From assembly GCA_026627305.1 (NCBI GenBank), contig JAPNVD010000013.1, positions 1 to 64,000 of the forward strand: DNA of 64,000 nucleotides, written 5' to 3'. This document shows, one piece after another, positions 17,581-20,529 of this stretch. A program made the translations under genes and the position numbers. This DNA comes from Sulfolobaceae archaeon. Lineage in GTDB: Archaea; Thermoproteota; Thermoprotei_A; Sulfolobales; Sulfolobaceae. How positions within the stretch are numbered: the stretch's first letter is position 1; every line of letters starts with the position of its first letter. The notes beneath the pieces were generated by a model. It saw only the letters and a list, made by a program, of their open reading frames with translations. It had not been told where the DNA came from and did not search any database.

Positions 17581-17871
17581 ATGGAAGTTATTGACGTTAT
17601 AATGAACGTTATAGTTTACGGTTCCTCATACTTAGTGGATAGACTGGGTTTTAAAATCCGTGCTGAGAATGCTGATGATCCGCTGACCATAAACTTCTTC
17701 GAGAAGACGAAAGCTGATATCCTTACTGAAGGGGTAAGCATGGGCAGAACCTCTCACTATCTTAAGGAAAATGAAAATGCTTATTGGATATACACAGTTA
17801 GGGATAATAAAGAGGAATTATATTATATAAATTTTAAAGCAAAAACAGCTATATTATATATCTTAGAATGA
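17581..17871 (+). CDS. Hypothetical small protein, first of two adjacent paralogues
   Basis: A 96-residue soluble protein of unknown function. It aligns by eye with the product of the next gene: both have a GF(K/T) segment near residues 20-30 and end in a Glu/Gln-x-YYI-hydrophobic-Lys stretch followed by strand residues (LYYINFKAKTAILYIL here). The stop overlaps the ATG of the next gene by four bases, so the pair is translationally coupled. An AT-rich stretch around 17545-17557 may be the promoter. Confidence 0.6.
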   Translation: MEVIDVIMNVIVYGSSYLVDRLGFKIRAENADDPLTINFFEKTKADILTEGVSMGRTSHYLKENENAYWIYTVRDNKEELYYINFKAKTAILYILE

Positions 17872-18155
17872 AGATTTCAGACAACGACTTGAAGCGTCTC
17901 ATTAACAGTCCTTCAGAATACGGTTTTACATTAATGGTTAAGAACGCTAGTTGTGACATAGAGAACGACGCTTTTTTGAGCTCATTTAACTTGTGTAAAA
18001 GGCATGCTAGGATTGCAGGTGATTTATACATTTCAGAACATCAAGATCTAGTTACAGTGATAACTAATAAACAAGAGTACTACATTATAGATCTCAAAAG
18101 AAAGATAATAGGGAAATACTTGTTTCAAACCTTTGATCATTCTACTCCTTCTTAG
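17868..18155 (+). CDS. Hypothetical small protein, second of two adjacent paralogues
   Basis: A 95-residue soluble protein, probably a diverged copy of its upstream neighbour (shared GF segment near residue 20 and EYYIIDLKRKIIGKYLF near the end). It contains two Cys not shared with the first copy (in ASCDIEN and NLCKRH). The reading frame ends inside the convergent DUF35 gene (14 bp overlap). Function unknown. Confidence 0.6.
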   Translation: MKISDNDLKRLINSPSEYGFTLMVKNASCDIENDAFLSSFNLCKRHARIAGDLYISEHQDLVTVITNKQEYYIIDLKRKIIGKYLFQTFDHSTPS

Positions 18156-18504
18156 GCTTATTCTTACTGAAAATTGGGATTTTCCTTCCATCCTTAATTG
18201 TGTACTTCACAACCACTTCATCCCCTATATCTACTTCATCTAAGAAGTTGGTGTACATCCTAAAGCCTTCATTGAGTTCAACAATCCCATAGATTACCTC
18301 TTTTCCATCCTTGTTTACGAATTTTGTATAAGAGAAAACTTTGCCAACACCTTTACTCTCCAGCACAGCTAAATCCTTAGAGCCACATTTAGGGCAGTAG
18401 TCCCTAGGGTAATAGAAGACATAACCGCATTTATTACACTTTACGTAAGGTAATTTCTCACTCTCAAACATCTCTAAGTATCTTTTCTTTATCTCATCAA
18501 ACAT
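18142..18504 (-). CDS. DUF35 zinc-ribbon/OB-fold protein, partner of the thiolase-like protein
   Basis: A 120-residue DUF35 protein. The rubredoxin-like zinc ribbon uses Cys23, Cys26, Cys37 and Cys40 (VKCNKCGYVF, DYCPKCGSKD), followed by an OB fold with VFSYTKFVN and YGIVELNEG. DUF35 proteins bind acyl-CoA and form complexes with thiolase-superfamily enzymes, for example in archaeal HMG-CoA synthesis and in steroid side-chain aldolases. The gene follows the thiolase-like gene by 2 bp and is certainly co-transcribed with it. Confidence 0.9.
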   Translation of the reverse strand: MFDEIKKRYLEMFESEKLPYVKCNKCGYVFYYPRDYCPKCGSKDLAVLESKGVGKVFSYTKFVNKDGKEVIYGIVELNEGFRMYTNFLDEVDIGDEVVVKYTIKDGRKIPIFSKNKPKKE

Positions 18505-18506
18505 AC

Positions 18507-19661
18507 CTACTCACCCCTCAACACCATAGTAACGGAGTGACCCCTATTCCACCCTCCTATTCCATTAACTAATATGCGATTAGCTCCTTTAACTTGATGA
18601 TTATAAGCCATGTTATTTAGTTGAAGTAGTGCCTCCTCCAATATAACTCCACCGCTCATGTAAGCTGGTTGACCAACGTTTAATGATCCTCCTCCTGTAT
18701 TTATCGGTACATTTCCCTGGTACGTAAGATCGTTATCTTCTACGAACTTACCCGCTCTTCCCTTCTCGACTAAACCTATATCCTCTATCTGAAGCATTAC
18801 AGTAATAGTGAAAGAATCGTAAAGCTCAAACGCATCAACCCCATTTATTTTAGCACCCTTACTGCTCTCTATTGCTGGTGTGTAAACTATATCCTGAAGT
18901 TCTGTTGGCATTTCATTCCAGTGGGCTTCATTATAAAATTCTATCTTTATAGGTCTTAAATCGGATTTTGAATGATGCTTGCTGACAACAAAGACATGGA
19001 ATCCATCAACGGGGTAGACTATCTCAAGTAATCTAAGGGGATCGCTGACAACCCTTGAGGACAATACATCTTTTACCGTTAGAGGAGTCCTATAGAGAGC
19101 TTTGTTATTACCCATAGCGTTTTTCCTCTGCATCACAGCTAATAGCGCTCTTTGCTCATCTGTGGTACCGAAAAGCTTCGAGTGCCTTTTAGCTACTAAC
19201 GCGTAATCAGTTACAGGATTAATATCTTCGTATATCCTGTAGAATTCATCAAAGGGAGTGAGGCTCACGTTCCCAAAGAACCTATCCACACTATCTACAG
19301 TTACCCTGTTTTCCCTTAGGAACGAAGCCTTACCACCGACGATACATAATGCATTCTCTATTTCACCAGCGCTAATTAACTTCTCAGCCCTATAAACCAT
19401 TGTCAACGCTGAAGGACCTCCATAGTCAACGGAATCTATGATTCTCGGTTTTATTCCTAGGAAGGTGGGGATTTGAAATGATGGAAAATGCAGTGAAGCC
19501 TTTCCCTCAATTGTTCCAGGTAAGTAAGTGTAGAACAGACCATCGATCTGTTTTAACTCCATGTTAGCCATTTCCATAGCTTTACTAACGGTCTCAGCTA
19601 ATAATTGGAACGTTGAACCCTCATATTTTTTATATATAGAACTAGCGAAGCCCACTATCAC
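18507..19661 (-). CDS. Thiolase-superfamily protein lacking canonical catalytic residues
   Basis: A 384-residue protein with the thiolase fold of the SCP2/DUF35-partner type (DAFELYDSFT segment, GGG near the C-terminus). The nucleophile Cys position reads VDYGGPS (78-84), with Tyr80 about where Cys should be. The GHP histidine motif reads GQP (330-332), and the final CxG motif reads NGIGG (366-370). All three canonical thiolase residues are therefore missing. Ordinary thiolytic chemistry is unlikely. The DUF35 partner suggests an acyl-CoA aldolase like the Ltp2/ChsH2 type, or a structural subunit. It overlaps the SDR gene by 4 bp and is in an operon with SDR and DUF35. Confidence 0.85.
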   Translation of the reverse strand: MIVGFASSIYKKYEGSTFQLLAETVSKAMEMANMELKQIDGLFYTYLPGTIEGKASLHFPSFQIPTFLGIKPRIIDSVDYGGPSALTMVYRAEKLISAGEIENALCIVGGKASFLRENRVTVDSVDRFFGNVSLTPFDEFYRIYEDINPVTDYALVAKRHSKLFGTTDEQRALLAVMQRKNAMGNNKALYRTPLTVKDVLSSRVVSDPLRLLEIVYPVDGFHVFVVSKHHSKSDLRPIKIEFYNEAHWNEMPTELQDIVYTPAIESSKGAKINGVDAFELYDSFTITVMLQIEDIGLVEKGRAGKFVEDNDLTYQGNVPINTGGGSLNVGQPAYMSGGVILEEALLQLNNMAYNHQVKGANRILVNGIGGWNRGHSVTMVLRGE

Positions 19662-20395
19662 AATACTAGACCTCCTGTCACTTCTATAATCGCCCCATTT
19701 ATGTATGAAGCCTCTTCTGAGGCCAGAAAAGCGATTGTGTTAGCCACTTCCTCTGGTCTACCCATCCTACCCATTGGAATTCTATCCATAATTAGCTTCT
19801 TAATCTTATCAGGAACAGAGGCTGTCATCGGAGTATCGATAAATCCTGGGACTATGGCGTTTACCGTTATATTATACTTACCCAGCTCTCTAGAAAGAGT
19901 AAGAGTAAAGCCTATTAACCCTGCTTTGGCAGCAGAGTAATTTGCTTGACCTATGTTACCCTTCCAGCTCGCTGAGGACATATTGATTATCCTTCCCCAT
20001 TGATTCTTTATCATACCATCAACCACTTGCTTTGTCATGTTGAACGCCCCATAAAGATGAACTTTGATAACCTGATCCCATTGTTCAGGGGTCATCTTTA
20101 TGAACAAGGAGTCCCTTATTATACCAGCGTTGTTAACTAAGACATCAACATGATCTATGCCTAAAATGGATAATACCTCATTATAAAATTCCTTGCAGGA
20201 GTTCCAATCAGTTACATCAACATGAAGGCCTATTACCCTTTCGTTATTTGTCTCCTCTTTTATACTTTTAGCCTTCTCTTTAACCACATCTGAGATATCA
20301 CCCATTATAACTCCATAACCTAAAGAGGCTAACTTTCTAGAGGTTGCAAGACCAATTCCACTGGCAGCCCCAGTTATAATAGCGTACCTAACCAT
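19658..20395 (-). CDS. Short-chain dehydrogenase/reductase (3-oxoacyl-CoA/ACP reductase-like)
   Basis: A 245-residue classical SDR of FabG type. The coenzyme motif TGAASGIG is at 8-15, NNAG at 88-91, the catalytic Ser in INMSSAS (about 140), and YSAAK with Tyr153 and Lys157. It should reduce a 3-oxoacyl or oxidise a 3-hydroxyacyl substrate with NAD(P)(H). It is the first gene of the operon with the thiolase-like and DUF35 genes, which suggests a joint acyl-CoA pathway. An ATATTTAAAC stretch centred about 27 bp upstream on the plus strand is the likely TATA box for a leaderless mRNA. Confidence 0.9.
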   Translation of the reverse strand: MVRYAIITGAASGIGLATSRKLASLGYGVIMGDISDVVKEKAKSIKEETNNERVIGLHVDVTDWNSCKEFYNEVLSILGIDHVDVLVNNAGIIRDSLFIKMTPEQWDQVIKVHLYGAFNMTKQVVDGMIKNQWGRIINMSSASWKGNIGQANYSAAKAGLIGFTLTLSRELGKYNITVNAIVPGFIDTPMTASVPDKIKKLIMDRIPMGRMGRPEEVANTIAFLASEEASYINGAIIEVTGGLVL

Positions 20396-20442
20396 TAGGA
20401 TAAACTATTTATTTGACAATATTTAAACAATTAGCTTTACGC

Positions 20443-20489
20443 TAATGAAGGAGGGGAATTGAAAGCCTCATCCTCTTTCTTGAAAGTCA
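20443..20489 (+). mobile_element. Relic resembling an IS200/IS605 right end
   Basis: The segment starts with AATGAAGGAGGGGAATT and continues GAAAGCCTCATCCTC to AAGTCA, following the order of the common archaeal TnpB-element end (GAAAGCCTC, short hairpin, AAGTCA). The hairpin has decayed and no tnpB reading frame is nearby. It sits between the SDR promoter and the end of the NRAMP gene. Confidence 0.4.
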
Positions 20490-20529
20490 AAGCTTTCCTC
20501 TAATTTAGAACAACTATCATTACTACTAA

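Follow-up and report, generated by a model that had tools for sequence, protein, structure and literature searches.

The stretch of DNA analysed here (the window, 64,000 nucleotides of a genome contig from a heat-loving archaeon of the Sulfolobaceae) contains three tightly packed genes on the minus strand. The first codes for a short-chain dehydrogenase (SDR, 19658..20395, 245 aa) that resembles 3-oxoacyl reductases and contains the Ser, Tyr and Lys residues; an acidic residue after β2 (GD) suggests NAD(H) as its cofactor. This gene overlaps by 4 bp (GTGA) with the start of the gene for a 384-residue thiolase-fold protein (18507..19661, GTG start), the subject of this report. The third gene (18142..18504) starts 2 bp behind the stop of the second and codes for a DUF35 or ChsH2-type protein of 120 residues. 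The GTGA overlap and the 2-bp gap indicate that the three genes form one operon, as a preliminary description of this locus had it. The intergenic region upstream (20396..20529, minus strand) contains an AT-rich TTTAAATA element near the SDR start that looks promoter-like by eye and is a candidate promoter. Two small plus-strand ORFs (17581-18155, 96 and 95 aa, no Pfam match) converge with the DUF35 gene and overlap its end by 14 bp.

The 384-residue protein belongs to the thiolase superfamily, as indicated by full-length homology and by a Pfam match to the thiolase C-terminal domain (PF22691, E = 4e-29). A structure prediction from a single homologue reached a pLDDT of only 36 and was set aside; a viral scan did not find relatives of the protein. 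In an alignment with solved thiolases and aldolases, Gly81 and Gly82 of the motif VDYGGPS (residues 78-84) occupy the region of the nucleophilic cysteine (EAACASG in 7yvy and 6esq), and Gln331 of GQP (330-332) occupies the position of the histidine in GHP. Reading frame, strand and motifs are as first described, and the loss of the nucleophile and of the GHP histidine inferred at that time stands up to alignment. The same cannot be said of the third motif, NGIGG (366-370). It had been read as loss of the CxG cysteine, but NVGG or NIGG also stands at this site in SCP2-type and archaeal thiolases whose Cys and His are intact, so that the motif is not diagnostic. The only cysteine of the protein, Cys106, lies in a core strand outside the active site and is not kept in all homologues, and no histidine is invariant among 19 Sulfolobaceae homologues. 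A misaligned Cys or His can therefore be discounted; as far as the sequence reveals, neither has moved into the active site from elsewhere.

The change that the preliminary description overlooked lies near residue 280. Here thiolases of EC 2.3.1.9 and 2.3.1.16 contain a His-Asp motif (HDAF, HDCF or HDM; HD(C/A)F in consensus). The counterpart in our protein is ELYDSF, with Tyr281-Asp282-Ser283 replacing His-Asp. Judged from the alignment, this substitution is the decisive one. Tyr281 coincides with the catalytic base of two steroid side-chain aldolases, Tyr294 of TcLtp2 (YDHF) and Tyr302 of CtSal (YDCY), and Gln331 coincides with Gln352 of CtSal; residue roles for both enzymes are taken from the CtSal study (PMC12329534). 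Since the tyrosine of the YD motif is the catalytic base in these aldolases, the protein has not merely lost the residues of a thiolase but contains one of an aldolase.

Conservation supports the same point. Tyr281, Asp282, Gln331, Gly81, Gly82, Tyr153 and Asn366 are invariant in the alignment of the 19 Sulfolobaceae homologues, which span four paralog groups, against a mean column identity of about 65%; the YD pair is unchanged in all Sulfolobaceae homologues. A search with the 384-residue protein found matches with E ≤ 1e-20 in 27 of 60 relatives. Values of dN for the gene range from 0.12 to 0.17; dS is saturated, and we discarded the dN/dS ratios for that reason. The number of relatives, the invariant active-site residues and the low dN together argue that the motifs without Cys and His did not arise by chance.

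A maximum-likelihood tree of 56 proteins separates 43 sequences with Tyr-Asp from 13 with His-Asp by a branch with 100/100 support. Both proven aldolases, CtSal and TcLtp2, fall on the Tyr-Asp side together with our protein, and the His-Asp side includes three thiolases from the window genome. The split does not depend on the motifs themselves, as it retains 100/99 support after removal of five motif blocks. The protein thus shows three marks of the aldolase-type branch that includes Ltp2 and Sal: the His of HD has given way to Tyr, the cysteine site holds Gly, and the position in the tree agrees. Grouping with CtSal in particular received 100/98 in one tree and appeared in 16% of bootstrap trees computed without motif columns; as its support depends on these columns, we set aside the idea of a close sister pair with Sal.

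Most of the Sulfolobaceae genomes searched contain genes of the Tyr-Asp type, and a single genome may carry as many as five. These genes fall into four paralog groups, of which group 1 includes the window gene. Group-4-like members also occur in a second archaeal family (G134, G161), beyond which the score falls from about 440 to about 208 bits. Bacterial relatives were found at about 33% identity on plasmids; the genome-contig search gave one bacterial relative and the rest come from plasmid records, so that this comparison is biased. The window genome (G000) also holds a decayed second copy at about 41.9-42.2 kb of contig C9 (L119:5877-6125, minus strand), where a C-terminus 75% identical over 32 residues is followed by a broken DUF35 remnant. 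Two further loci of this genome encode thiolase-like proteins without the nucleophilic cysteine. One is a tandem pair at G000:C2:40159-41951 (L006, L008; VFVGGATG/VEPYDPF and VDGDG/IDDRYS), possibly a PhlA-like or other non-thiolase pair. The other is a paralog outside the Tyr-Asp type at G000:C15:90371-91237 (L005), with VEAGDGSG at the cysteine site, IHDSYS and GYP.

The genes next to these paralogs point to acyl-CoA metabolism. The SDR is linked to group 1 loci, some of which also encode an enolase-superfamily protein or a CoA ligase of the AMP-forming type. In group 2 the neighbors are a CoA ligase, an acyl-CoA dehydrogenase and a fusion of 3-hydroxyacyl-CoA dehydrogenase with enoyl-CoA hydratase. 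Group 3 is accompanied by MaoC, SCP2, a CoA ligase and an acyl-CoA dehydrogenase, as well as by a canonical thiolase, encoded separately, that has its own DUF35 gene. Group 4 adjoins a CaiB-type CoA transferase, an acyl-CoA dehydrogenase and a CoA ligase. Several bacterial relatives similarly adjoin genes for MaoC, acyl-CoA dehydrogenase, CoA ligase and DUF35. Ligase, dehydrogenase and hydratase make up the set that produces the 3-hydroxyacyl-CoA cleaved by Sal and Ltp2. The window operon itself contains no hydratase or acyl-CoA dehydrogenase gene, and the CoA ligase of some group 1 relatives has no close match in the window genome (best 33%), a metagenome-assembled genome that is 79.5% complete.

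The DUF35 protein consists of a zinc ribbon with four cysteines (C-x2-C-x10-C-x2-C) and an OB fold; Pfam recognizes the ChsH2 zinc ribbon, and the ChsH2 OB fold falls below threshold. Its nearest solved relatives are Sso2509 (the translation recovery factor Trf, 6htj, E = 2e-36) and then the DUF35 domain of ChsH2 (6ok1_B). A DUF35 gene lies directly behind the aldolase-like gene in 38 of 40 cases in Sulfolobaceae. A search with Trf identified 36 of these 40 as followed directly by a Trf-like gene on the same strand, and two group 4 genes are followed by a more divergent DUF35. Of the two genes without such a neighbor, one is at a contig end. The other (L051:7346-8497) belongs to genome G007, which has its DUF35 elsewhere; it is the only group-1-like gene without an adjacent DUF35 in a single-contig genome, and the Trf-like gene of this genome sits apart at G007:C1:333712-334026. 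The protein distances of aldolase-like and DUF35 proteins correlate with r = 0.87 (0 of 2000 permutations). Adjacency and codivergence both point to a dedicated zinc-ribbon DUF35 partner, as in Ltp2 and Sal, and on this basis we predict a complex.

Position on the Tyr-Asp branch with CtSal and TcLtp2, the aligned Tyr281, the DUF35 partner and the acyl-CoA operon company lead us to propose that the 384-residue protein is probably an acyl-CoA C–C lyase, a retro-aldolase that would be reversible in principle, with an SCP2-thiolase fold and a DUF35 subunit. A steroid substrate is not implied, and no steroid genes were seen in the loci examined. The enzyme would form a dimer with a DUF35 subunit on either side, the two DUF35 subunits shaping the acyl pocket, and it would bind a 3-hydroxyacyl-CoA. 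Tyr281 could serve as the base that takes the proton of the 3-hydroxyl group, and cleavage of the C2–C3 bond would then yield the acyl-CoA enolate together with an aldehyde or ketone. The backbone of Gly81 and Gly82 and the C-terminal NGxGG loop may stabilize the oxyanions. The NAD-type SDR would act either before the cleavage, by making the hydroxyacyl substrate, or after it, on the carbonyl product.

How the enolate might be protonated is less obvious. The second catalytic residue is Tyr344 in TcLtp2 and Cys304 in CtSal (PMC12329534). The active site of our protein, as far as alignment can tell, is a variant without either of these, and the proton must therefore come from another group. Candidates are Tyr281 itself, the invariant Tyr153 or a water molecule held by the invariant Gln331. 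Tyr334 of QPAYMSGG is replaced by Phe in 4 of the 19 homologues and was therefore rejected as general acid. The C304S mutant of CtSal is inactive (PMC12329534), and serine is the natural residue at this position in our protein (Ser283; Ala in groups 3 and 4). The archaeal site must therefore work differently or catalyze another reaction.

This last option deserves consideration. The missing general acid of both known aldolases would fit another type of CoA chemistry on this fold, such as thioester hydrolysis, decarboxylation, acyl transfer or hydration, and the trypanosome relative TbSLP shows weak malonyl-CoA decarboxylase activity (PMC12329534). We consider such a reaction unlikely, as the base tyrosine of both proven aldolases is invariant, malonyl-CoA decarboxylation by CtSal was not detected (PMC12329534) and the operon company fits formation of 3-hydroxyacyl-CoA. 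It is similarly improbable that the protein is a noncatalytic scaffold. Much like PhlA in PhlABC, it would then bind a partner enzyme or CoA esters and do no more than organize a complex of DUF35 with another enzyme. The absence of the thiolase Cys and His would agree with this role, and DUF35 proteins do act as scaffolds in complexes of HMG-CoA synthase with thiolase (PMC6996347) and in PhlABC (PMC2954200). On the other hand, seven active-site residues are invariant over four paralog groups and the branch contains proven enzymes. Group 1 also has no catalytic thiolase gene alongside, and the canonical thiolase next to group 3 comes with its own DUF35. An ordinary divergent thiolase with misaligned catalytic residues, as the NCBIfam label "acetyl-CoA acetyltransferase-like" might suggest at scores of half the cutoff or below, is hardly credible and already contradicted by the sequence, given the unconserved lone cysteine and the lack of an invariant histidine.

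The retro-aldolase reading also bears on Trf. One genome of our set (G014) matches Trf with 100% identity over the 113 residues tested and was for this reason taken as Sulfolobus solfataricus. Its trf gene overlaps by 4 bp (ATGA) with, and lies directly behind, the gene for a group 2 homologue of the window protein; both are part of an acyl-CoA degradation operon (L117:6679-8192; G014:C1, about 2347678-2349192) that continues with CoA ligase and acyl-CoA dehydrogenase genes. Loci of this group (L117:2010-4982, L047, L048) also adjoin an MFS transporter of the aromatic acid/H+ symport type and an HpaB-like 4-hydroxyphenylacetate 3-monooxygenase, a hint that the substrates may be aromatic compounds or phenylpropanoid side chains. 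Trf has been reported to bind aIF2 and to release it from RNA, and a deletion mutant shows delayed outgrowth (PMC3936769); the structure paper noted that its fold is similar to DUF35 scaffolds (PMC6996347). Text searches of the two papers gave no mention of this gene neighborhood of trf. The RNA used in the aIF2 release test was named 2508sh and, judged by this number, may derive from the gene adjoining trf. The simplest reading of the gene position is that Trf is a subunit of an acyl-CoA enzyme, which does not contradict the published in vitro data. We tentatively suggest that Sulfolobaceae possess a set of acyl-CoA aldolases with a new, minimal active site (a single catalytic Tyr together with Gln, without Cys, His or a second Tyr) and their own DUF35 proteins, and that Trf could be one of these, either primarily or in addition to its described role.

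If these proposals are correct, retro-aldol cleavage by thiolase-fold enzymes would be a widespread means of acyl-CoA shortening in archaea and bacteria, beyond steroids. Many genes annotated as "acetyl-CoA acetyltransferase" or "thiolase" would be misnamed, and Tyr-Asp with Gly-Gly versus His-Asp with Cys would serve as a sorting rule. The mechanistic question would be how an enolate is protonated without either known acid. Whether Trf is rightly assigned as a translation factor could also be put to a direct test. Should Trf be a subunit of such an aldolase, the delay in outgrowth after trf deletion would at least partly reflect a defect in acyl-CoA metabolism, and the translation and acyl-CoA parts of the phenotype would need separating.

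The archaeal acetoacetyl-CoA thiolase in complex with DUF35 and HMG-CoA synthase (6esq) shares the fold and the DUF35 partnership with our protein. However, it contains the nucleophilic Cys, the His of GHA/GHP and the HD motif, and it lies on the opposite side of the 100/100 branch. The search for solved structures returned CtSal (9myr, E = 8e-48) as the best match, followed by 4u4e (3e-33), 4yzo and TcLtp2 (6ok1, 1e-20). TcLtp2–ChsH2(DUF35), the steroid C3 side-chain aldolase to which the locus was originally likened, shares with our pair the YD tyrosine (the base in TcLtp2), a Gly at the nucleophile site and a Cys4 DUF35 partner. This likeness holds for tree position, catalytic Tyr, DUF35 partner and operon company. 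It does not extend to Ltp2 proper, since the His of YDHF is replaced by Ser (YDSF) and Tyr344 by Gln331, and CtSal is more similar than TcLtp2. CtSal–CtShy(DUF35), the bile-acid C5 side-chain aldolase of Comamonas testosteroni, has in common with our protein the thiolase fold, Gly at the nucleophile site, the YD tyrosine, Gln at the GHP site and a DUF35 partner. At about 30% identity, Cys304 and Gln347 of CtSal are nevertheless replaced by Ser283 and Ser326, which leaves Gln331 (Gln352) as the only match among the residues typical of Sal. In addition, Shy is a MaoC–DUF35 fusion with a Cys3His zinc site, whereas the archaeal DUF35 is free-standing with Cys4. Like our protein, the "thiolase" 4u4e of Sphaerobacter thermophilus and PRK06158-type proteins of bacteria contain YDSF or YDAF and Gly-Gly at the nucleophile site, and most bacterial loci read have a DUF35 neighbor. 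These proteins retain a His at the GHP site (THPG or NHP) that could supply the enolate proton, whereas the Sulfolobaceae proteins have Gln. Among solved structures Trf comes closest to the DUF35 partner, and its gene immediately follows that of a window-protein paralog, yet it was published as an aIF2-releasing factor, whereas the DUF35 protein described here is a predicted subunit of an acyl-CoA enzyme.
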